A DNA stretch of 64,000 nt from assembly GCA_003169975.1 (NCBI GenBank), contig PNAA01000043.1, forward strand, positions 1 through 64,000, written 5' to 3'. The notes below the pieces were generated by a model. It was not told the origin of the DNA, made no database searches, and saw only the letters and a program-made list of their open reading frames with translations. Position 1 is the first letter of the stretch; each line of letters opens with the position of its first letter. A program made the translations under genes and the position numbers. Source of the DNA: Spartobacteria bacterium (GTDB lineage: Bacteria; Verrucomicrobiota; Verrucomicrobiia; Chthoniobacterales; UBA10450). Of the stretch, positions 5,886 to 64,000 are shown piece by piece.

Positions 5886-7589
5886 GTGAAAACTGGTTCT
5901 CCCGACCGTCGTGAATTTCTCCGTGTCTTGGGCGGCGCCGCGCTTGCGGGCGCGCTCCCGTCGTGGCTGCGCGCCGCGGAAAATCCGGATCTCGTCACCA
6001 TCTCGATCCTGCATACGACCGATCTGCACGGCCATATCCGGCCGACGATTGATTACAACGGCCGCGCGGATCTTGGTGGGATGGCGCGCTGCGTGACGCA
6101 GATACGGCGCTGGCGGAAGGAGAATCCAAACTCGCTCCTGATCGACGTCGGCGACGTCTATCAGGGCACCGAATTCGCGTTGCGCGACCAGGGCCGGATG
6201 ATGATCGAGCTTTTCAACCTCCTGCGCTACGATGCCTGGATCGTGGGCAACCACGAGTTCGACTGGGGCGTCGAGCCGTTCCTGCAGGCCGTCGCGCGTT
6301 CGGCGATGCCGGTCCTCGCGGCGAACACTCTGCTCGAAGGAAAACCCGCCGGCGACTTCGCTGATGCGCATCATCCCTTCGCGAAAATCCAGCCGTTTAT
6401 TCTGAAGGAAATCGCGGGGATCAAGATTGCGGTTCTTGGCCTAACGACGCCGGGAATGCCCTTTTGGTTTCCCTCGAAATTTATTGAGGGAATCGAGTTC
6501 CAGAATCCGGTCGAGCCCGTGCGCCGCGCGATTCGGGAGGCGCAAGCGCAGGGTGCGAATGCCGTCGTCCTGGCCGGACACATGGGTTTGAAAGAGCGAA
6601 CCGGGGGCGATGATTTTGCCAACCGTTGCATCGCGCTCACGGCCGAGTTCCCGCAGGCCGCCGTCTTTATCGCCGGGCACACCCACCAGGACATCCCGAG
6701 CCGCCTAACGAATGGCGTCCTTCTCACCCAGGCCGATCACTTCGGCATCCACGTCGGGCGGGTCGATCTATTGTTTGATCGCGGGTCGAAGAAACTCCTC
6801 CATCAGGAAGCGCGTACCGAGATCATGGACGGACGGATTTCGTTCGATCCGGTTGTCCTTAGTCGCGCCCAACCACAGCTGGATCGCGCCGCCGCCGTCC
6901 TCGCGCAACCAATTGGCGAACTGGCCGACACCATGAGTGTGAAAAGTCGAGTCGGTGAGCCGAGCGAAGTCGCCTTGCTGATTGCCGCCGCGATTACCGA
7001 AGCGCTGGCGGATCGCGGCCTGGCCATCGACGGCGTATTTCATGGCTTGTTCGATGACCAGCACGCTTTCAGGAAGGGACCGAAGACGGTCGGCGATATC
7101 TGGGAGACACTGCCTTACGAAAATTTTCTCGTCACCGGCCAGCTCCTGCCGGTCGAGCTGAAGGTGGTGATGGAAGAAGTGTTCCAAAGCCGCGAAACCC
7201 GCAGTCTCGCCGGCTTCAAAATGCTCGTGGAGGGGAAGGGGAGAGAGCGCCGCCTAACGAGCCTTCGCCTGGCCGATGGCCGACCGCTCGATCCAGCGCG
7301 ACGTTATCGCATCGCCGTCAACACCTTCGATTCCCGAAGCGCCGGGCATCGCTTCATGAAGTTGCGCGATCTCCTCGATCGGCCGGAAGCAAAGTGCACG
7401 TTCCATCCGGTGCAAACGCGTGACGCCTTGATCGATTATTTCCGACGACACAAAGTCGTGCATCGAAATCCTTGCGAGCGCCCGCAGGCCCCGCTCGTCA
7501 TCCCGAGCGCAGTCGAGGGATCCCGTGGCGCAGGCCTTAAGGTGACTTCCGCGGGATCCCTCGACTCCGCTGCGCTTCGCTCGGGATGA
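5886..7589 (+). CDS. Tat-exported 5'-nucleotidase/UshA-like metallophosphatase
   Basis: About 567 residues from GTG 5886. A twin-arginine signal (DRREFLRVLGGAALAGALP) is near the N-terminus, so the enzyme probably acts in the periplasm. Calcineurin-type metallophosphatase motifs are clear: TTDLHGH, DVGDVYQG, GNHEFDWG and AGHTHQDIP. They are followed by a C-terminal 5'-nucleotidase domain containing ETLPYENFLVTGQL. Family members hydrolyse nucleotides or UDP-sugars; a SoxB-like role cannot be excluded because SoxB shares the fold and Tat signal. A TTG start at 5832 is also possible. The last roughly 30 residues, including the TGA stop, are encoded by a dispersed GTCATCCCGAGCG element (7497-7590), so the native C-terminus appears replaced. 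Confidence 0.85.
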   Translation: MKTGSPDRREFLRVLGGAALAGALPSWLRAAENPDLVTISILHTTDLHGHIRPTIDYNGRADLGGMARCVTQIRRWRKENPNSLLIDVGDVYQGTEFALRDQGRMMIELFNLLRYDAWIVGNHEFDWGVEPFLQAVARSAMPVLAANTLLEGKPAGDFADAHHPFAKIQPFILKEIAGIKIAVLGLTTPGMPFWFPSKFIEGIEFQNPVEPVRRAIREAQAQGANAVVLAGHMGLKERTGGDDFANRCIALTAEFPQAAVFIAGHTHQDIPSRLTNGVLLTQADHFGIHVGRVDLLFDRGSKKLLHQEARTEIMDGRISFDPVVLSRAQPQLDRAAAVLAQPIGELADTMSVKSRVGEPSEVALLIAAAITEALADRGLAIDGVFHGLFDDQHAFRKGPKTVGDIWETLPYENFLVTGQLLPVELKVVMEEVFQSRETRSLAGFKMLVEGKGRERRLTSLRLADGRPLDPARRYRIAVNTFDSRSAGHRFMKLRDLLDRPEAKCTFHPVQTRDALIDYFRRHKVVHRNPCERPQAPLVIPSAVEGSRGAGLKVTSAGSLDSAALRSG

Positions 7590-7590
7590 C
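7497..7590. repeat. GTCATCCCGAGCG inverted-terminal element, copy 1
   Basis: A 94-bp element with inverted ends GTCATCCCGAGCG and CGCTCGGGATGAC and inner inverted GAGGGATCCC/GGGATCCCTC arms around a variable centre. It forms the 3' end of the nucleotidase gene and supplies its TGA stop. Other copies are at 14353, 21921 and 37071, with a diverged relative at 46403. Confidence 0.9.
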
Positions 7591-14352: not shown

Positions 14353-14435
14353 GTCATCCCGAGCGCAGTCGAGGGATCCCGCTGCGCTAGCTTAAAGGTT
14401 TCTCCACGGGATCCCTCGACTGGGCTCGGGATGAC
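14353..14435. repeat. GTCATCCCGAGCG inverted-terminal element, copy 2
   Basis: An 83-bp intergenic copy starting 2 bp upstream of the GH57 start codon and ending 2 bp before the aminotransferase stop. It fills the whole gap between two co-directional genes. Confidence 0.9.
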
Positions 14436-14437
14436 GC

Positions 14438-21314: not shown

Positions 21315-22565
21315 CTAGGCGAGCGCATGCTCTGCGCGGTAGGGGTTTGCCGGCGAACGCGGCCGGTCGAGGATTCGTTCCAGCGTGGCGATCGTTTGTG
21401 CGATTTCGCCCGCGGCCGTTCCTGTGCCTAACGAAAAGCGAACCGCCGAGCTGGCGCGCTCCGGCGGCATCGCCATCGCGCGCAGGACATGCGAGGCGAC
21501 GACCGAGCCGACCATACAGGCCGAACCGCTCGAAGCGCAGACGCCCTCGAGATCGAGCGCCATGAGGAGCGTCTCCGAGGAAAAGCCCGGGAAACTGACG
21601 TTGAGCGTGTTGGCGAGGCGGGGTGCGCCGGCACCGTTCGGTTGAGCCTCGGGAAAGATGCGGGCGATGCCGCGCCATAATTCGTCACGCAGTTTCGCCT
21701 CGCGCGCCTGTTCGTTAGGCAAATCGCGCCAGATTTCCTCCGCGGCGGCCGCCATCCCGACGATCGCCGGGACGTTCTCGGTTCCCGGACGGCGTTCGCC
21801 TTCGTGCGCGCCGCCGAATTGGATGCGGTCGATCGCCAGTCCCGCGCGCAGATAAAGAAACCCTGCGCCTTTTGGTCCGTAAAATTTGTGCGCGCCAAAA
21901 CTGGCGGCGTCGACCAGAAGGTCATCCCGAGCGGAGCGCAGCCGAGTCGAGGGATCCCGTGATGGAACCTTTGCGGTAGCGCCCCGGGATCCCTCGACTG
22001 CGCTCGGGATGACGGCAAGTTTCCCGAACGACTGCACCATGTCGCTGTGCAGCAGCACGCCGTGCTTCCGACAACGTGCCGAGATTTCCGCCATCGGCTG
22101 GATCACGCCCGTCTCATTGTTTGCGGTCATGATCGAGACGAGCGTCGTATCCGGCCGGATCGCCTGCTCCAGCGCGTCGGGATCGAGCAAACCATCGCCG
22201 GAAACATCCAACCAGGTGACTGCAAAACCTTCCATTTTTTCCAAATGCTCGAGCGTGTGCAACACCGCGTGGTGCTCGGCGCGGTTGCTGATTAAATGCT
22301 TTCCGTTAGGCGCCAGCCTGCGGGCGAGGCCGAGGAGCGCGAGGTTGTTCGCCTCGGTGCCGCCACTGGTGAAAATGATCTCGTGCGGTTTGACGCGCAG
22401 GAGCGCGGCCAGCCGATCGCGCGCGTCGTCGATCGCGGCGCGCGTTTCGCGGCCGGCGCGATGGACGCTCGACGGATTGCCGAAATGCCGCTCGAAATAA
22501 GGCTGCATCGCGCGCCAAGCCGCAACGCCGAGCGGCGTCGTCGCGTTGTAATCGAGATAAATCAT
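21315..22565 (-). CDS. cysteine desulfurase (NifS/IscS family) with in-frame repeat insert
   Basis: 416 residues. This PLP enzyme converts cysteine to alanine and an enzyme-bound persulfide for Fe-S clusters and thio-tRNA. Marks: MIYLDYNATTPL, the GGTEANNLAL motif, PLP-Lys in SFGAHKFYGPKG, and catalytic Cys in ASSGSACMVGS. Residues about 185-215 are encoded by a 93-bp GTCATCCCGAGCG element (21921-22013) inserted in frame between QSFGKL and VDAASFGAHK; other NifS proteins have only a few residues there. Its ATG overlaps the stop of the serine acetyltransferase as ATGA, so translation is probably coupled and cysteine made upstream feeds the desulfurase. Confidence 0.92.
   Translation of the reverse strand: MIYLDYNATTPLGVAAWRAMQPYFERHFGNPSSVHRAGRETRAAIDDARDRLAALLRVKPHEIIFTSGGTEANNLALLGLARRLAPNGKHLISNRAEHHAVLHTLEHLEKMEGFAVTWLDVSGDGLLDPDALEQAIRPDTTLVSIMTANNETGVIQPMAEISARCRKHGVLLHSDMVQSFGKLAVIPSAVEGSRGATAKVPSRDPSTRLRSARDDLLVDAASFGAHKFYGPKGAGFLYLRAGLAIDRIQFGGAHEGERRPGTENVPAIVGMAAAAEEIWRDLPNEQAREAKLRDELWRGIARIFPEAQPNGAGAPRLANTLNVSFPGFSSETLLMALDLEGVCASSGSACMVGSVVASHVLRAMAMPPERASSAVRFSLGTGTAAGEIAQTIATLERILDRPRSPANPYRAEHALA
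21921..22013. repeat. GTCATCCCGAGCG inverted-terminal element, copy 3 (inside a gene)
   Basis: 93 bp, exactly 31 codons, with complete inverted ends. It lies in frame within the cysteine desulfurase gene, with no stop codon in the read frame. Confidence 0.92.
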
Positions 22566-37021: not shown

Positions 37022-37070
37022 CCCGCGAAGTTTAACGACGAAAGGCAGCGCGGCCAGCGTTTACCGCGTC

Positions 37071-37163
37071 GTCATCCCGAGCGCAGCCGAGGGATCCCGT
37101 TGAGCGACCCTAACGGTTCCGCCACGGGATCCCTCGACTCCGCTGCGCTTCGCTCGGGATGAC
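37071..37163. repeat. GTCATCCCGAGCG inverted-terminal element, copy 4
   Basis: 93 bp with perfect ends, 13 bp downstream of the M28 peptidase stop. Its inner arms GAGGGATCCC/GGGATCCCTCGACTCC are identical to those at 7497. Confidence 0.92.
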
Positions 37164-52055: not shown

Positions 52056-52129
52056 GCGCCCGTAGCTCAACTGGATAGAGCATCTGACTACGGATCAGAA
52101 GGTTTGAAGTTCGAATCTTCACGGGCGCG
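52056..52129 (+). tRNA. tRNA-Arg (anticodon ACG)
   Basis: 74-nt cloverleaf: acceptor GCGCCCG/CGGGCGC, D arm GCTC...GAGC, anticodon arm TCTGA-CTACGGA-TCAGA giving ACG, T arm TGAAG-TTCGAAT-CTTCA. CCA is not encoded. The change in gene content immediately to its right suggests a tRNA-anchored integration site. Confidence 0.95.
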
Positions 52130-52583
52130 CTGTTCATTGCGCGCGACTTATGCTGACAACGGCAGTTTTAGGAATTGTCTGCTTAGCCATTTCTTAGCCA
52201 CTTTCACTTCTCAACCTGCCTCCGACCCCCGGGGGGAGGGGGTGGCGAATTAACTAGGGGAGGCGGGCACAAATCCGTTTGGGTCCGCAAATTTTTTTGG
52301 GCAATAGGCCGACCTGAGCCGGACCGCGGCCAAAGGGGCGCAACTCGGCGGGCGAAACTACTTAGTTGCTGCGAAAATGAATTGCGAGTTTTGTGAATGA
52401 GCCAAATATTCTGCGATAAAAATCGCGACCGGAAGGCCCATTTCTCGGTCGCGCTGTGGCAATACGGGCGAAAACGCATTTGGCAGGACCCTGTCGACGA
52501 CCGTGCAAAAAACCGTGGTACATTATCGATTGGCTTCTTGGCCAAGTTGAGGCCGGTGATTGCCATCGTTCCGAGCCGCAGCT
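52130..52583. other. gene-free stretch next to tRNA-Arg
   Basis: 454 bp with no convincing gene. Inverted G/C tracts (CCCCCGGGGGGAGGGGG) and A/T-rich segments, including CAAATTTTTTTGGGCAATAG. No duplicated tRNA 3' end is seen in the window. It may be a remnant of the left edge of the island. Confidence 0.5.
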
Positions 52584-53081
52584 CTAACGACGCGTTTTCT
52601 TGCCGCGCGCCGCAACGGTTGATCGGCCCTTCCGGACGGAGAAGCGGCTTTTCGATTTGGCCGAACGCGATTTTAGCTTGGTGGAGCGCGAACTGGTTTT
52701 CGCGATCCGAGCTTTCGCGCGGCGGGATTTTTTCGCCCCGGATTTCTTTGCTTCGGCACGGGTCGCTTTTCCCGGGCGGACTGACTTGACGATGCGCTTC
52801 GCCGCCGGCACTGCCGCACGGGCGGTTTTCGCGGCAGCTTTCACCTTGCGGGTTACCTGTCGCGCGGTGCGTCTGACCGCGGGCATTATTGGCTCGTCGC
52901 TCTCCGCCCTCTTCCCGATAACCGCGCCAATGACGCCGCCGAGGACCGCACCCACCGGCCCGCCGACCGCGCCGAGAACTGCGCCCGTCGCGGCGCCGGC
53001 CGCAGCTTTCGAGATGGGCGGGATGTCGATGTTTTCATTCGATCCGGATTGCGCAGCAGAGGATTGCGATTTTTTTGCCAT
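52584..53081 (-). CDS. glycine-zipper protein with histone-H1-like basic tail
   Basis: 165 residues from ATG 53081 (MAKKSQSSAAQSGS). An Ala/Gly-rich glycine-zipper segment (AAGAATGAVLGAVGGPVGAVLGG) able to span or pack membranes is followed by about 95 residues rich in Lys, Arg, Ala and Ser resembling histone H1/AlgP-type DNA-binding tails. Such hybrids may bridge nucleoid and envelope; that is inference. The open frame extends to 53138, but the extra residues lack similarity. Confidence 0.65.
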   Translation of the reverse strand: MAKKSQSSAAQSGSNENIDIPPISKAAAGAATGAVLGAVGGPVGAVLGGVIGAVIGKRAESDEPIMPAVRRTARQVTRKVKAAAKTARAAVPAAKRIVKSVRPGKATRAEAKKSGAKKSRRAKARIAKTSSRSTKLKSRSAKSKSRFSVRKGRSTVAARGKKTRR

Positions 53082-53276: not shown

Positions 53277-53379
53277 ATGGAACGGGACCGCTCCGGCGCG
53301 ACCAAGACTTCGGGCGATCAATCTAATAGCTCCGAAGACATCAGAATCACCGCGGCGATTCGTCGCGCCGTGATGAAGG
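53277..53379 (+). pseudogene. BON-domain protein, 5' half
   Basis: ATG 53277 begins MERDRSGATKTSGDQSNSS and EDIRITAAIRRAVMK, which is the start of a BON-domain (OsmY-like) stress protein. The expected continuation (DQPLTMTAKNVKIIT...) is instead found on the opposite strand at 53683-53507. Reversing the segment between AAGG 53376-53379 and CCTT 53683-53686 restores a continuous frame of about 93 residues. Confidence 0.75.
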
Positions 53380-53682
53380 GAAATCCGGCACCTTGGAGAT
53401 TTCCCACGATGCGCTCCGCTTGAGAACGAGAAGTCGCGATACAGAATACAGATGTTTTAGACATAGTTTGAGTGTTTGTTTTTTGGTTGTTGTTTGTTTG
53501 TGGACGTTATTTCGACTCTTTGATTTCGAGTTGATTGTCGATTTGGGCGCCGGGAGCCGCAGCTCTGGCGAGTTGATCGATCTTTGTTTTTTCCTCGGCG
53601 CTCTTCACCGGGCCCCGAAGCGTGACCATGCCGCCCGCGGTGATGATCTTGACGTTCTTGGCCGTCATGGTGAGCGGCTGAT
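53380..53682. mobile_element. 303-bp inverted segment splitting two genes
   Basis: Bounded by the 4-5 bp inverted matches AAGG (53376-53379) and CCTT (53683-53686). Inside, on the minus strand, lie the 5' end of the DUF1269-like gene and the 3' part of the BON gene. Outside, on the plus strand, lie their other halves. Flipping the segment rejoins both genes (the DUF1269 frame to within one base). No recombinase gene or longer inverted repeats are adjacent. Reads spanning the junctions would show whether both orientations exist or whether this is an assembly artefact. Confidence 0.7.
53381..53464 (-). pseudogene. DUF1269-like stress protein, 5' end (inverted)
   Basis: ATG 53464 on the minus strand reads MSKTSVFCIATSRSQAERI and VGNLQGAGF, then runs into the junction. 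This matches the N-terminus of DUF1269/general-stress glycine-zipper proteins; the remainder starts at about 53692 on the plus strand. Confidence 0.7.
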
Positions 53683-53683
53683 C
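53507..53683 (-). pseudogene. BON-domain protein, 3' part (inverted)
   Basis: On the minus strand it reads DQPLTMTAKNVKIITAGG and VTLRGPVKSAEEKTKIDQLA, ending ...QLEIKESK with TAA at 53507. It has no start of its own. It continues the BON fragment at 53277-53379 once the segment is flipped. Confidence 0.75.
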
Positions 53684-53691
53684 CTTCGGGG

Positions 53692-54132
53692 GAGATATCC
53701 GTCTTATTGCCGGCCGATGAGGGGAAGCATGACATTGGTCACGTAAAAGCCACCAATGCGCCAGAAGGGGCGACAACGGGGGCGGTCACCGGGGGAGTCA
53801 CTGGAGGAGTGATTGGCTTGCTCGCGGGCATCGGCGCGCTCGCCATTCCGGGCGTAGGTCCCCTCATCGCTGCTGGTCCGATTGTGGCGGCGCTCAGCGG
53901 TGCAGCAGTCGGCGGGGCCACCGGTGGCATCGTCGGCGGGTTGATCGGACTCGGGATTCCCGAAATCGAGGCCAAGCGTTATGAAGAGAAGCTCAAGGCT
54001 GGTAATTATCTCATTTCGGTGCACGCGCACGATGGCGACCGAAAGGATATTGCCAAAAATATCTTCAAGACTGCCGGCGCGGAGGACATTACGGTCTCGT
54101 CGATGTCCAAGGCACCGGCGGCGACTCACTAG
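53692..54132 (+). pseudogene. DUF1269-like glycine-zipper stress protein, 3' part
   Basis: Reads EISVLLPADEGKHDIGHVKA, then a glycine zipper (TTGAVTGGVTGGVIGLLAGIG) and IPEIEAKRYEEKLKAGNYLI, a full C-terminal two-thirds of a DUF1269/YflT-like protein. A TTG at 53707 is available as a start but would give an N-truncated protein. Intact only in the flipped arrangement (within one base). A strong terminator follows. Confidence 0.7.
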
Positions 54133-54155
54133 CTCCCCGTCGACGAATCAAAATC

Positions 54156-54190
54156 AAAAGGCCTCGCGCGGTTCGGCGCGGGGCCTTTTT
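54156..54190 (+). terminator. rho-independent terminator
   Basis: 14-bp stem AAAAGGCCTCGCGC with GCGCGGGGCCTTTT (one G-T pair), loop GGTTCG, followed by TTGTTT. Placed 24 bp after the DUF1269-like stop. Confidence 0.9.
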
Positions 54191-54353
54191 GTTTCCCAGG
54201 ATAGGCGGACGGGTATGCTGCGGAGAAGTTCAGGAGAGCAGAAGAGGAAGCGGAAGCTGCGTGACCCAGCGGTAAGCAAGGCGCGTAAGCAGCAGGCTCC
54301 TATGCTACCGCGCCATTTACTACAGAAAAAGGTTTTGGCATTGCGTGGCGAGG

Positions 54354-54540
54354 CAGGCTCAACTGCGTGAACGGCAGAAACTTCTTTTCCGCGTCGCGAG
54401 CCGCAAGGCCGTCGCGGTTATTCTGGACTCCGATGAGGACGCGCTTTATATTCTTTCTTCAGCGGTCGGAAATTTGCTGCAGAACGCTTTCAATTTCACA
54501 CGCGATAGTAGTGAGGTGACTTTGAATGCCTATGCGTTCG
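54354..54540 (+). pseudogene. sensor histidine kinase fragment
   Basis: About 60 codons around SDEDALYILSSAVGNLLQNA, resembling the N-box of histidine-kinase ATPase domains. Nothing before or after belongs to a kinase. Confidence 0.5.
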
Positions 54541-54613
54541 CCCAGAGTTCTGTGCACGCTTGGAAAAGAAGGCGCGTCGCGGCCCGCCGCGGGCGGAGGT
54601 GCGAATATACGGC

Positions 54614-54736
54614 ATGATCAAGCACAAAGACCTCGCGGATCCGAACCGGCGTGAGGTGATCATCTTCGGCGGCGGGATCGCGGGGCTTTCGGCGGCGATT
54701 TATCTCGGGCGGGCGGAACGCGACACGCTGGTGATA
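54614..54736 (+). pseudogene. flavoprotein (thioredoxin reductase-like) N-terminal fragment
   Basis: ATG 54614 reads MIKHKDLADPNRREVIIFGG and GIAGLSAAIYLGRAERDTLV: a dinucleotide-binding GGGIAGLSAA loop. It breaks off after about 41 residues where the RsmI fragment begins. Confidence 0.65.
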
Positions 54737-54741
54737 TATCA

Positions 54742-54870
54742 CTCGTTTACGTCGTCGGCACACCGATCGGCAATCTCGACGACATCACGCTGCGCGCGCT
54801 CCAGATTCTCAAGAACGTGTTAAAGCGACTGAAAAAACCAGTAACGAAAAAAACTACTAAAAAGGCTTGA
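54742..54870 (+). pseudogene. RsmI N-terminal fragment with Lys-rich tail
   Basis: Reads LVYVVGTPIGNLDDITLRAL and QILKNV, the start of 16S rRNA 2'-O-ribose methyltransferase RsmI. It is then fused to LKRLKKPVTKKTTKKA and stops with TGA. The catalytic remainder is missing. Confidence 0.75.
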
Positions 54871-54902
54871 CACCAGCAGACAAAATTCGGCCTACTCGGC
54901 CT

Positions 54903-56501
54903 ATGAAACACCCAACTCTGCAGAAAGTCATGCTGACGACGATGGCTGTGGTTGCTTCGCTCGCGCTCAGTGCGCAGGCTGGCCAGCCAAAACCTGTCGC
55001 CAGCGAAACAAACCCGGCGCTGCCTGCGTCGTGCAGCTGGTCAGCTGGTCCGGACCTGCCAAGTGTCGGGGCCCGCGTGGTTGGCGTTTATTTCCCGGCT
55101 AATGGGAAGTTTTACGGTATGGGCGGTCGCGCCTCCGACTCATTTGGCGGCGAGTTCACTCACCCGTTTGAATACGATCCAGGCACTAACGCCTGGACCA
55201 CCAAGTCGGCCACCTACCCCGACACCCATGTAAACAACATGGCCTGTGGCGTGCTTAACGACGCTGGAACGGACTACATTTACTGCGTGGGTGGTTCGCA
55301 AGTTACCTTGCCCGACATTTTCGATCGCGTATTCCGCTATGATCCTGTTACTGACGTGATCAGCGCGGTTGCTGCTCCCTGGCCCGGTGGCCTGGGAATG
55401 GTTCTGCCCGGAGGCTTCACGGTCTTCAACAACAAGCTCTATATCCTGGGTGGGTTCGACACCATCACGGGAGGTGGGCAAGGGACCAACCAGATCTGGG
55501 AGTTTACACCTCCTACCACCTGGGTACAAAAGGCCGCTGTTCTGCCTGTTCCGCTCGGCTATATACCGACCACGACCATCGGCAGCCTAATCTACACAGG
55601 TGGGGGCAGCGATATCACGGCCGGCCTTCTCACCGATACTACAAACTCCTTTGTCTATAATCCGGTGGCGGACAGTATCTCCACCATTGCCAGCATACCG
55701 AGGGCCACAGGCGAGACCCGAGCGCTGAACTTCAATGGCCAGATGTTGGTGATGGGCGGCGGCAGAACCGCGCCGAACCCATCGAATGAGGTGGACGTCT
55801 ACGATCCAGGTAGTGACAGTTGGACAGTTAACACGCCTGTTCCCGCATTCGTCACTGCGCGGCGCAACTTCCCAACCGACACCGACGGCACCAGTCTCAT
55901 CTGGCTCGCAGGCGGCTACGACAGCAGCGGGGTCACACTGCTGGCTTCGATGGAAATCTTCGAATGCAACACCGGCGGCAACCTCACGCTGGTGAGCGCG
56001 GCCTCGAGGAAGACTCACGGCAGCAAGGGCTCGTTCGACATTCCGTTGCCGCTCACCGGCAATGTTGGAATCGAATGCCGCACCGGGCTGACGAGGAACA
56101 CGGTCGTGTATACGTTCAACAACGCAGTGACTGGCGCCGACAGCGCGAGCACTTCCTGCGGAACGATCGGCAGTATCTCGGTGGACCCTGCCAACGCGAA
56201 AAACCTGCTGGTGACCTACAACGGCGGTACCTGCAATAAATCGACCGTCACGGTCACCCTGACCAACGTGCACGACACAATGGGCAATACACTCGGCACC
56301 GCCTCGGCGAGCATGGGCATATTGACCGGTGACGTCACCGGCGACGGTAAGGTCAAGAACGGCGACATATCGGCAGTGCAAGCGGTCCAAGGTCAGCAGA
56401 CCAACAGCTCGAACTTCCGTGATGATGTGACGCTTGACGGCCGAATCAACAATCAGGACATGCAGACGGTGCGGTCGCACAGAGGCGATGTCCTGCCGTA
56501 A
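54903..56501 (+). CDS. secreted kelch-propeller protein with dockerin-like C-terminus
   Basis: 532 residues from ATG 54903. Signal peptide (MLTTMAVVASLALSAQAGQ), then six or so kelch-like blades (NKLYILGGFDTITGGG; MLVMGGGRTAPNPSNEVDVYDPGS; LIWLAGGYDSSG), a beta-sandwich region and a C-terminal type I dockerin-like pair of calcium loops (DVTGDGKVKNGD and DVTLDGRINNQD). It is extracellular; dockerins bind cohesins, but none is in the window. GC content and lack of octamer fit the island. Function unknown. Confidence 0.8.
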   Translation: MKHPTLQKVMLTTMAVVASLALSAQAGQPKPVASETNPALPASCSWSAGPDLPSVGARVVGVYFPANGKFYGMGGRASDSFGGEFTHPFEYDPGTNAWTTKSATYPDTHVNNMACGVLNDAGTDYIYCVGGSQVTLPDIFDRVFRYDPVTDVISAVAAPWPGGLGMVLPGGFTVFNNKLYILGGFDTITGGGQGTNQIWEFTPPTTWVQKAAVLPVPLGYIPTTTIGSLIYTGGGSDITAGLLTDTTNSFVYNPVADSISTIASIPRATGETRALNFNGQMLVMGGGRTAPNPSNEVDVYDPGSDSWTVNTPVPAFVTARRNFPTDTDGTSLIWLAGGYDSSGVTLLASMEIFECNTGGNLTLVSAASRKTHGSKGSFDIPLPLTGNVGIECRTGLTRNTVVYTFNNAVTGADSASTSCGTIGSISVDPANAKNLLVTYNGGTCNKSTVTVTLTNVHDTMGNTLGTASASMGILTGDVTGDGKVKNGDISAVQAVQGQQTNSSNFRDDVTLDGRINNQDMQTVRSHRGDVLP

Positions 56502-56528
56502 TTAGAAAGGTCTAACATCTAACAATTC

Positions 56529-56559
56529 ATCCGGGAGCCGTCCTAACCGGCTCCCGGAT
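56529..56559. terminator. stem-loop after the kelch gene
   Basis: 12-bp perfect stem ATCCGGGAGCCG/CGGCTCCCGGAT with loop TCCTAAC. No T run follows, so terminator activity is likely but unproven. Confidence 0.6.
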
Positions 56560-56589
56560 TGCTGTACGCCCAGAGGGACGCCAGCCGAA

Positions 56590-56631
56590 GAACCATTCAG
56601 CGTTGATCCGCTGAATGGTTCCTTTGTTTTT
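56590..56631 (+). terminator. second stem-loop with T-rich tail
   Basis: 13-bp stem GAACCATTCAGCG/CGCTGAATGGTTC, loop TTGATC, then CTTTGTTTTT. Stronger intrinsic-terminator character than the one before it. Confidence 0.65.
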
Positions 56632-57016
56632 GAGATCTGCGACGAGGGATTCGCGGTCACGCCGAGTCGACGACGTAGTGCGAGCACGCGCCGCCGAGAG
56701 ACAGATCATCTGGGACGGCAAACACCCGAACAAAGACCATCCGATCGTAAACATCGAGGTGACAAACCTGTCGCCGAGACCTGTTACCATCACAAGAATA
56801 GGGTGGAGCGCGGGTGTTTTTCGGAAACGCTACTTTTTCCAAGTCCCCGCTTGCAATCTTTAAGCGGCGCGAGAATACCGGTTGCACGGCGGGAGCTTCC
56901 GCATGCAAGCTTGGTATGCACTCTGGAATGCAACCAATATAAAAGGTTCATTACGAACTCGTTACAAAAGATTTTTGTTGACACATTGCGCCGGTTTCTC
57001 TAGGAAATTCGGAATT
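56632..57016. other. decayed spacer with a protein fragment
   Basis: About 385 bp. A plus-strand reading frame near 56690-56863 (IVNIEVTNLSPRPVTITRIG...) looks like the C-terminus of an otherwise missing protein. TTGACA at 56978-56983 is a possible -35 box for the next gene; the -10 is weak. Confidence 0.5.
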
Positions 57017-58500: not shown

Positions 58501-60819
58501 TCAGGCGGCCATGGGCGCGTAGCGCTTGTGGCCTTTCACGTCATAGCGGTCGAGCATCATGACCTTGTCCCAGGCTTTGATGAAGTCCTTGACGAAGCGC
58601 TGGTGGCCGTCGCTGCCGGCGTAGACGTCGGCGACGGCACGCAATTGCGAGTTCGAGCCGAAGACCAGGTCGTTGCGCGTCGCCTTGAACTTGGTCTGGC
58701 CGGTTGCACGATCCTTGAGGGTAAAGCTCATGCCTTCTGCGTCGGCCTTTAGCCACTCGAGTTCGGTGTCGGTCAGGTTGACGAAGAAGTCGTTAGTCAG
58801 GACGCCGACCTTGTCGGTGAAGACGCCGTGGTCCGATCCATCGTGGTTGACGTTCAGCACGCGCAGCCCGCCGGTCAGGACGGTCCACTCGGGCGCGTTC
58901 AGCTTCATCAGGTTGGCCTTGTCGAGGAAGAACTCCTCGGGGGCGACGCCTTGCGAAACCTGGCGGAACTCGTCGCCGACGTAATTGCGGAAGCCGTCGA
59001 CGATGGGCTTCAGCCACGTGAACATTTCCACGTCGGTGAGTTCCTGCGTGGTATCGACGCGGCCCGGCGTGAACGGGGCGCTGGCGTCGACGCCGGCGTC
59101 CTTTGCCGCTTTCTCCACCGCCGCGCAGCCCGCCAGCACGATCAGGTCGGCCAGGGAGATTTTCTTGCCGGTCTGCTTGCCGTTGAAGTCGGCCATGACG
59201 CCGCGCAGCTTTTCGATCACGGGCGCGGCCCGGCGGTTGACCGTCCAGTCCTTTTGCGGGGCGAGCGCGAGGCGACCGCCATTCGCGCCGCCACGCTTGT
59301 CGCTGTCGCGATAGGTCGCCGCCGCAGAGAAGGCGGTGAAGGCCAGATCAGACACCGAGAGTCCGGTCGCCATGACCGCCTGCTTCAGCCCGGCGATGTC
59401 GGCGTCGCCGACCAACTGATAGTCGCGGTCGGGGAGCGGGTCCTGCCAAAGGAGGCCGTCCTCGATCGTCGCTTCCGGGCCAAGATAACGGAACTTGGGT
59501 CCCATATCGCGATGGGTGAGCTTGTACCAGGCCTTGGAGAAGGCCTGGGTGAAGGCATCGAAATCGGCCAGGAACTTCTCGCAGACCTTCCGATACTCCG
59601 GATCGACTTTGAGTGCGATGTCGCTGGTCATCATCATCAGCGGGTTCATCTGGCCCTCGACATGCGCGTCGGGCGTCTTGGGCGCATCCGGGTCGGTCGG
59701 CGTCCACTGCAGCGCGCCGGCCGGGCTTTTGGTCTGTTCCCATTCGAACTTGAACAGGTTCTCGAGGTAGCTGTTGTCCCACTGCGTCGGGTTCGGCGTC
59801 CAGCTGCCCTCGATGCCGTTGGTCATGGTGTATTGTGCGAAGCCGGGACCTTCGGGGTTGTTCCAGCCGAGGCCCATGGCTTCCATCGGGGCGATCTCGG
59901 GCGGCGGGCCGACCTCTTTGGCGGACACCATGCCGTGGCTCTTGCCGAAGGCGTGGCCTCCGGCGATCAGGGCCACGGTTTCTTCGTCATTCATCGCCAT
60001 GCGGGTGAAGCTGATCCGGATATCGCGTGCCGACCCCATCGGATCGCCGTTCGCGTAGGGGCCTTCCGGGTTGACGTAAATGAGCGCCTGGTGCGTGGCG
60101 GCGAGCGGGTTTTCGAGGTCGTAATCGGCATCGCCGTTCTTGCCGCGCCAGCGCTTGTCTCGTGTGACCATGCTGTCGAAGCTTTTAACGTCCTTCGGGT
60201 CCCAGATTTCCGGGCCCCAATAGGTGGCGTTGTCCGCCTCCCAGGCGTCGAGCCGCCCGCCACCGAAGCCATAGGTCGGGAAACCCATGATCTCGAGGGC
60301 GCAGTTGCCGGTCAGAATCATGAGGTCGCCCCAGGACAGGCCATTGCCATATTTGTGCTTGATGGTTTGCAGGAGGCGCCGCGACTTGTCGGTGTTGCCG
60401 TTGTCCCACCAACTGCTGATTGGGGCGAAGCGCTGCATGGCCGTGCCGGCGCCGCCCCGGCCGTCCGCGATGCGGTAAGTGCCGGACGCGTGCCAGGCCA
60501 TACGGATCATCTGCGGACCGTAGTTGTGATAGTCGGACGGCCACCAGGCGACCGAGGTCGTCAGGAACTGCTTGATGTCTCGCTTGAGCGCTTCGAAGTC
60601 GATTTTCGCGAACTCGGCCGCATAGTCGAAGTCCGGGCCGAGCGGATCGGCTGGCAGGCCGTTCTGATGCAGAAGTTCGACCCGCAGACGATCGGGATAC
60701 CAGTTCTCGAGCGTTGGCGGGGTGCCGAATGCACCACCGACTCTGTCGCCTCCGAACGGGCACTTGCCGGTCATCTCGTGGGTTGCGGTAAAGGTCTTAT
60801 CTAACGGCTTGTCGTTCAT
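58501..60819 (-). CDS. katG: catalase-peroxidase KatG
   Basis: 772 residues from ATG 60819 ([16 protein letters not shown]). Bifunctional haem enzyme that removes H2O2. The distal Trp-His of [10 protein letters not shown], the Tyr of LIYVNPEGP and the Met of RMAMNDEE form the expected Trp-Tyr-Met adduct region; the proximal His is in [10 protein letters not shown]. The C-terminal degenerate domain is intact (ends [12 protein letters not shown]). It has no octamer copy in 2.3 kb, unlike most long core genes, and has a proteobacterial-looking sequence, so it may be acquired. It stands between a decayed hsdR and the integrase operon, with its own terminator. Confidence 0.95.
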
Positions 60820-61241
60820 AGAAATTTTCTTGGTCGAATTCAATCTCTCATGAGGCGGGCAAACCGACAAAGCCTGATTGGTGATCCCCTAGTAAATCGA
60901 CGCCCTCTCAAGGCGTTGCGCCGATGGGTTTGGGCGGTGGAAATTTCTGGGTAATGGAGGAACGAGTGGTCCGTCGAATCCAGGCACAACGAATCGGCGG
61001 AAATGATCTTGGAATCTTCCGAGACTGGAGGGAGCGGCCAAACGCGGCAGAGGTCCCGTTTTCGAGACGATTCATTTCTTCTAATGTCCGGAAAGAAATT
61101 CAAATGCGCGCGCGCTGCCCCCCCCGTTTGGGGGACGGCAGGGGGCTTTTCTCTCTGTTTTTGTTTTAGAGAGTTCTTGTTTTGAAAAGTTTCTGTTTTG
61201 GAGAGTTTCTTTTCTGAAGGTTCTTGTTTCCACCGTTTCTA
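60820..61241. other. spacer with C/G-run hairpin and T-rich direct repeats
   Basis: 422 bp. A run GCCCCCCCCGTTTGGGGG, then at 61140-61240 degenerate repeats of TTCTTGTTTTGAAAAG/TTTCTGTTTTGGAGAG type. It lies at the end of the integrase operon (genes read leftward) and upstream of katG. No gene. Confidence 0.6.
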
Positions 61242-62359: not shown

Positions 62360-63181
62360 CTAATGATCCGCCTTGGGAGGCTTTGCAGAGCGGGCCGAGG
62401 ACAGCTTGACCGATCCAAGTTGACGAGGCTTGGCCTGCTTCGCCTCGTCGCGCAACCTTCGTATCGACCGACCTACCGTCGCCGTCACCTGCTCGAGCAC
62501 CAGTTTTTCATCAGCCGGGTATTCGTGCTTACCAAGGCTGATGTCGCCAGTCGCGACCAACCTTTTCGTGTGTGCTGCGGGCTTGAAGCCGACCGCGGGC
62601 GCGGCCTGCGAGATCAGGATGGCACGCCGTCCGGCGCTCCCCTTTGGATCGACACGTTTGAAGTGGTCAAAGAGGGCCACAAGGAATCTGCCGGTGAGCT
62701 TGCAATCGCGAGTCCACTGCCGCAAGAGGTGTGGCGCGGCTTTGCCAGGCGAGAGGGTTTCGTCCCAAAGCAGAATCGGCACTTGGACGGGTGAGCCATC
62801 CAATGCTGAGCTCGCAAAGGAGTAAACGATGTCGCTCAGGTAGCGTTTGGCGGCGGCGTCGATGGAGGAAAAGAATTTCCGTGGCGCTTCCTGTCCCTCG
62901 AAATGATGACGGTATCGGTGCCACATGGCTTTCTGCGGCAAATTGCACGGTCCGCCTCGGGTTTCCGGGTCAACACCAGCCAGAGAAACGACAATCCGGT
63001 CAAAGTCCATACGGGCGGTGCCTCGAGCGATGGGATCTCCAATTTGGCGAGCGAAACGCCAAGTCAATTTCTCAGCCAGCTCTGTGGAACCGACGACATA
63101 TCGGTGTAAGCGCTCGGCCTCTTCTCGAATGGCTTTTGGCTGGCGTGGTTTTGTTTTGATTTTGTTGGGATGCGATTTCAT
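62360..63181 (-). CDS. hypothetical protein of the integrase operon (273 aa)
   Basis: 273 residues. Basic N-terminus (MKSHPNKIKTKPRQPKAIRE), a helical region, then FSSIDAAAKRYLSDIVYSFA, a central RWTRDCKLTGRFLVALFDHF part, and a basic C-terminal tail. No recognised domain. Its start overlaps the integrase stop by ATGA (63178-63181). Its stop is about 120 bp from the start of the HTH gene. Probably a mobile-element protein. Confidence 0.65.
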   Translation of the reverse strand: MKSHPNKIKTKPRQPKAIREEAERLHRYVVGSTELAEKLTWRFARQIGDPIARGTARMDFDRIVVSLAGVDPETRGGPCNLPQKAMWHRYRHHFEGQEAPRKFFSSIDAAAKRYLSDIVYSFASSALDGSPVQVPILLWDETLSPGKAAPHLLRQWTRDCKLTGRFLVALFDHFKRVDPKGSAGRRAILISQAAPAVGFKPAAHTKRLVATGDISLGKHEYPADEKLVLEQVTATVGRSIRRLRDEAKQAKPRQLGSVKLSSARSAKPPKADH

Positions 63182-64000
63182 GGCGTTTTGGCGATTGTTT
63201 TCAGCGGGCGGATGGAGGGCGCGGTGAGGAGATCCCCAAACTCAAACATGATGGGGCTTTTGTTGGCCACATAATGGCCGGCGGTGGTGGCGATGTTGCG
63301 ATGACGCAAGGCCGCGCTGGCCGCGTAGAGGCCGTGACGTTGATTGATGATCGAGCCGAACTCTTTCCGGAGAACGTGGAGCGGCTTCTTGTCGTCAATT
63401 CCTTTGGCACGAAGCCAGGCGTAGAGTCGCTCGAATACGGGCTGGCAGCGGTAATATTGGCCGCCGAAGTGAACACGCGGACCGCGTGGGCTGCCAATGA
63501 CGAACGGAATTTTCCTCCCCGGCATGTAGGCGCGAAGCTCGTTCGTTAGGGCATCGTCGATCTCGACTTCGGCGGCCGACTCGTCGGTTTTAAGATCGCC
63601 GTGTTCCGAGACCTCGATCCGGATCGTTTGACGCCGGAAATCGATCTGCTGCCAGCGGAGCGAATCGATCTCGCCTTTGCGAAGTCCGGCGCCGATGGCG
63701 AGGAGCAGAACGAGGTAGGCGTCGGAGTCGGTTTCACGAAGTTCGTTGAGGGCGGCGGTGATCAAGAGCGGGACATCGATGCGTCCCTGATATTTCGGGG
63801 CACGCGGACGATCGATTTTAATTCCGCTGAAGGGGAGCGGATCTGGCAGTTCGAGTCTTTCGGCGACGAAGCGGACGATTTTTGGACTGAAAAGAGAACG
63901 GGCGCAGCGCAGGTAGGAATTGCTGCTGCGTGTGGCCGAGGCGCGCGCGGCGGGATTGGTGACGCGCTTGATGAAACGGACGCGCCACTCTTGCAGCTTG
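63178..64000 (-). CDS. tyrosine recombinase/integrase, partial (runs off the window)
   Basis: The frame stays open to the right edge, where it encodes LQEWRVRFIKRVTNPAARAS and a core-binding region. The catalytic Arg is in GAGLRKGEIDSLRW, the HxxR pair is in LHVLRKEFGSII and the C-terminal block with the nucleophilic Tyr is ALRHRNIATTAGHYV. It heads a four-gene leftward operon (integrase, 273-aa, HTH, 264-aa). Its N-terminus lies outside the window. Likely responsible for insertion of the island or a nested element. Confidence 0.88.
   Translation of the reverse strand, partial: KLQEWRVRFIKRVTNPAARASATRSSNSYLRCARSLFSPKIVRFVAERLELPDPLPFSGIKIDRPRAPKYQGRIDVPLLITAALNELRETDSDAYLVLLLAIGAGLRKGEIDSLRWQQIDFRRQTIRIEVSEHGDLKTDESAAEVEIDDALTNELRAYMPGRKIPFVIGSPRGPRVHFGGQYYRCQPVFERLYAWLRAKGIDDKKPLHVLRKEFGSIINQRHGLYAASAALRHRNIATTAGHYVANKSPIMFEFGDLLTAPSIRPLKTIAKTP

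Follow-up and report, generated by a model that had tools for sequence, protein, structure and literature searches.

A 303-bp inversion across a BON and YflT/DUF1269-like gene pair in a tRNA-Arg island of a Spartobacteria bacterium

The gene pair and its inverted segment

The stretch of DNA analyzed here ("the window") spans 64,000 nucleotides, i.e., positions 1 to 64,000 of contig PNAA01000043.1 (C9 below) of a Spartobacteria bacterium. Within it lies a disrupted pair of stress-protein genes, a BON gene followed by a YflT/DUF1269-like glycine-zipper gene, arranged as follows.

53280–53379, plus strand: BON fragment, 5'-truncated and without signal peptide, uninverted part (87% to C47:38142-38045)
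53374–53380: left breakpoint, GAAGGG, which alignment of this junction with 12 homologues resolves into a probable ancestral GAAGGA repeat and one added G
53380–53683, minus strand: inverted segment with the rest of BON, the spacer and the first ~29 codons of the YflT/DUF1269-like gene (84–86% to C47:37725-38047, opposite strand; restoring flips)
53681–53687: right breakpoint, TCCTTC (sequence and breakpoint alignment)
53684–54132, plus strand: rest of the YflT/DUF1269-like gene, uninverted (89% to C47:37727-37196; about 94% amino acid identity over the aligned part)

Positions 53380–53682/3 (303 bp) are inverted relative to an intact paralogue on contig C47 of the same genome and to 67 named contigs of relatives. 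Aligned to C47 37196-38142, the window reads plus at 53280–53377, minus at 53379–53687 and plus again at 53682–54210, all at 84–90% identity, and the match of the inverted segment (E about 1e-96) is far above chance. An inversion between AAGG at 53376–53379 and CCTT at 53683–53686, proposed earlier from the letters of the window, is therefore borne out by alignment to the paralogue. The accompanying claim that a flip would rejoin the BON frame exactly and the second frame to within one base agrees with our virtual flips: those such as 53376–53686 or 53380–53682 restore the BON frame, those such as 53380–53683 restore the YflT/DUF1269-like frame, and none of those tested restores both, the two frames being offset by one extra base at the junction. 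That base has no counterpart in 11 of 12 aligned homologues (the twelfth, G004, is unaligned at that place) and, read against them, is derived. Judged from these alignments, both genes are disrupted by the inversion, and intact copies remain on C47. As for the second gene, its earlier "DUF1269-like" label is amended here, the Pfam match being to YflT (PF11181) at 25.0 bits, just below the 26.2 cut-off.

The order of the two genes in relatives is uniform. In 83 of 83 loci that hold both genes (67 on distinct named contigs), BON comes first and the stress gene follows it in the same direction after 14–140 bp, and a DNA search across the whole family (83 genomes) agrees; the split or opposite-strand order occurs in 0 of the 83 homologous loci. 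On this comparison the tandem order is ancestral. The original prediction, which had advised searching relatives for the unbroken order, thus anticipated the tandem arrangement that the intact C47 pair and all 83 loci display. The closest named relatives are Chthoniobacterales bins, which makes a soil Verrucomicrobiota the probable host; no relatives of the gene pair or of the island integrase described below were found among viral contigs, and a plasmid search gave no match.

The BON copy in the window is incomplete beyond the inversion. Its homology begins at 53280, mid-gene, and the signal peptide that starts the C47 BON protein and its relatives is missing from it and was not found across the rest of the window. 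Of the earlier assignment of a BON 5' half to 53277–53379, the BON homology stands, while the ATG at 53277 is not the native start. Since the copy lacks both its signal peptide and its 5' end, no flip could now yield a BON protein that is normal and exported. Most likely, the BON copy was already broken before the flip, truncation after the flip being the alternative order.

Selection on the pair helps to date the breakage. Relative to C47, dS is 0.3–0.6, internal stops are absent, and dN/dS is 0.09–0.10 outside the flip and 0.16–0.19 inside it, i.e., low on both sides of both breakpoints. Low dN/dS and the absence of internal stops indicate that the pair evolved as working genes through most of this divergence and was broken recently. 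The same data bear on whether the split arrangement is itself functional, with a truncated 141-aa glycine-zipper frame (53707–54132) or an antisense frame expressed as a new gene. A frame of 141 aa does open with a TTG at 53707, yet the gene has lost its N-terminal domain along with the native start, and the intact ancestral frame explains the low dN/dS; no other genome shows this arrangement. We regard such a new gene as extremely improbable.

Breakpoints and the prospect of a phase switch

The inverted repeat at the ancestral ends—as inferred from homologues, the ancestor itself being unsequenced—is only about 6 bp (GAAGGA/TCCTTC), and in the breakpoint alignment with 12 homologues it is shared by neither the C47 paralogue nor relatives. 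Since 6-bp inverted repeats number 108 pairs in the restored 871-bp segment, the AAGG/CCTT repeat alone is unremarkable and not beyond chance. With about 6 bp shared at its ends and one added base, the event has the form of a microhomology-type inversion.

Could a recombinase instead flip the segment reversibly, as an on/off switch for the two stress genes? Apart from the inversion neither frame is damaged, and recombinases are encoded: a tyrosine integrase in the island and one serine recombinase in the genome (C18:102557). As in invertons, a short DNA segment is inverted relative to a reference (PMC11892184). Invertons, however, are described with flanking inverted repeats of 10–40 nt (PMC11892184), whereas here the inverted match is about 6 bp and missing from paralogue and relatives, and we found neither flanking repeats of that length nor a flip that cleanly regenerates a functional gene or promoter. 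No flip restores both frames, BON is 5'-truncated in either orientation, and none of the 83 homologous loci carries the alternative order. The island integrase lies about 9.5 kb from the inversion and is placed as an island integrase; the only serine recombinase is on C18. A phase switch, one of three options in the original prediction, is poorly supported and, given the short repeat absent from relatives, the lack of a flip that is frame-exact for both genes and the lost BON 5' end, we judge it highly improbable. The frames, the BON truncation, the 83 tandem loci and the unconserved repeat led us to reject it as the main reading.

A run of gene fragments in a tRNA-Arg island

The disrupted pair sits within a larger structure whose features, together with a run of gene fragments beside the pair, are these.

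52056–52130, plus strand: tRNA-Arg(acg), left end of the island (ARAGORN)
52087–52131, plus strand: left attachment repeat, 45 bp; partner at C9:64658-64702, outside the window (44 of 45 bases identical)
54357–54443, minus strand: G-box fragment of a histidine kinase, facing the N-box fragment head to head (78% to C47:49411-49497)
54453–54530, plus strand: N-box fragment of the histidine kinase, giving the second micro-inversion (opposite strand, 77% to C47:49590-49513)
54591–54735, plus strand: thioredoxin-reductase-like gene, 5' end only (89% to C47:40584-40729)
54746–54819, plus strand: RsmI-like methyltransferase gene, 5' end only (92% to C12:140056-139983)
63181–64000, minus strand: tyrosine integrase, intact, its frame running past the window end to contig position 64512 (444 aa; Pfam PF00589, E 1.5e-12)

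The 12.6-kb island runs from 52087 to C9:64702, between the tRNA-Arg(acg) and a 45-bp repeat of the tRNA 3' end, with some 145 bp separating the integrase frame from the right repeat. Island content is absent in three relatives (G001, G009, and G010) in which the tRNA-Arg has the same neighborhood, and this shared neighborhood indicates that the contig belongs to the lineage; the spot is variable, the right flank in G001 being found about 4.3 kb further on. End repeats of a tRNA 3' end, an adjoining integrase and absence at the same site in relatives are thus all present. The original prediction recognized the inversion at this locus and missed its setting among gene fragments in a tRNA-integrated island. 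Six other integrase loci of relatives showed no tRNA or tRNA-type end repeats on the stretches examined.

The island and its surroundings hold several further elements. Its cargo includes katG (58504–60870) and a kelch/dockerin gene (54825–56671) that is seemingly mosaic, its ends matching C12 (81 and 92%) and its middle C15 (69%), and at 52587–53078 a glycine-zipper protein carries a long, histone-H1-like tail rich in lysine/arginine. A ~70–115-bp, partly palindromic repeat family occurs in the window at 7496–7590, 14353–14436, 21921–22014, and 37070–37163, with further copies on C5 and C12. In the relative G065 (L225:1000-4424), a cluster of ~120–140-bp imperfect direct repeats lies near a related integrase.

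Among the fragments, a histidine kinase (C47 49411-49590) is represented by two halves that stand head to head at 54357–54530, which constitutes a second micro-inversion; the G-box motif of the kinase fragment is degraded. When about 461 kb of the genome was self-compared, a count that depends on the presence of paralogues, the BON/YflT and kinase flips were the only adjacent short flips besides hits within inverted-repeat families on C5. Taken together, the recent breakage of working genes and the divergence of the pieces from the host's own copies suggest that the fragments derive from a related donor. A stronger version, in which the island or host keeps taking up short chromosomal gene pieces of relatives and uses microhomology to scramble and invert them (ongoing shuffling rather than passive decay), we consider very unlikely.

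The original prediction also allowed for an assembly chimera; through misassembly or strain mixing, the contig might then show an arrangement that exists in no cell. The named related genomes are metagenome bins, this genome is in 59 contigs, and an out-of-frame base exactly at a junction, several short joined fragments and a mosaic would fit assembly error. Yet ordinary k-mer-driven misjoins would need more shared sequence than the roughly 6 bp at the inversion junctions, the pieces have diverged 8–23% from this genome's own copies and so are not misplaced copies of those, and the conserved tRNA-Arg flanks and intact integrase make a sensible larger structure. An artifact is, on balance, unlikely.

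A probable one-time inversion and its putative mechanism

We conclude that the 303-bp segment was probably inverted once, in an event associated with microhomology, within a redundant BON/YflT-like pair that was already 5'-truncated and belongs to the fragment run of the tRNA-Arg island. Of the options in the original prediction, recent mutation is the best supported, given the low dN/dS on both sides of both breakpoints.

The form of the junctions points to template switching as the probable mechanism. A stalled replication fork would have changed template twice, each time crossing to the opposite strand some 300 bp away by way of the ~6-bp inverted match GAAGGA/TCCTTC, and would have left one extra base at a junction. 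The hairpins predicted around the breakpoints are of ordinary strength (z -1.7 and -0.2), which led us to reject them as the cause of the stalling. Similar scars would also be expected from end joining or from the annealing of short repeats.

A parallel comes from starving Escherichia coli, in which inversions with microhomology of a few bases and small insertions/deletions at both ends were attributed by the authors to template switching within one fork (PMC3161906). Those short, near-reciprocal inversions resemble the present one in their few-bp microhomology, small end indels and lack of recombinase repeats, and they were likewise described together with other rearrangements (PMC3161906). 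They differ in being laboratory events with known parents and end changes of up to tens of bp, whereas the present event, reconstructed from homologues, involves a smaller segment and one added base. The island, for its part, resembles tRNA-integrated islands with a tyrosine integrase in its direct repeats of a tRNA 3' end at both ends and the integrase beside one of them; among the features tested, the unusual run of chromosomal gene fragments alone sets it apart, and its mobility is putative.

If this reading holds, the locus offers a clear case, dated by selection, of a sub-kilobase inversion that, lacking recombinase repeats, disrupted two genes of a natural bacterium in a single event. 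The locus further illustrates how an apparent phase switch may be told from a one-off rearrangement, i.e., by an intact paralogue, 5' truncation, a junction indel, the lack of a conserved repeat and a context of debris. Should islands commonly collect such fragments, the finding would be of wider interest.
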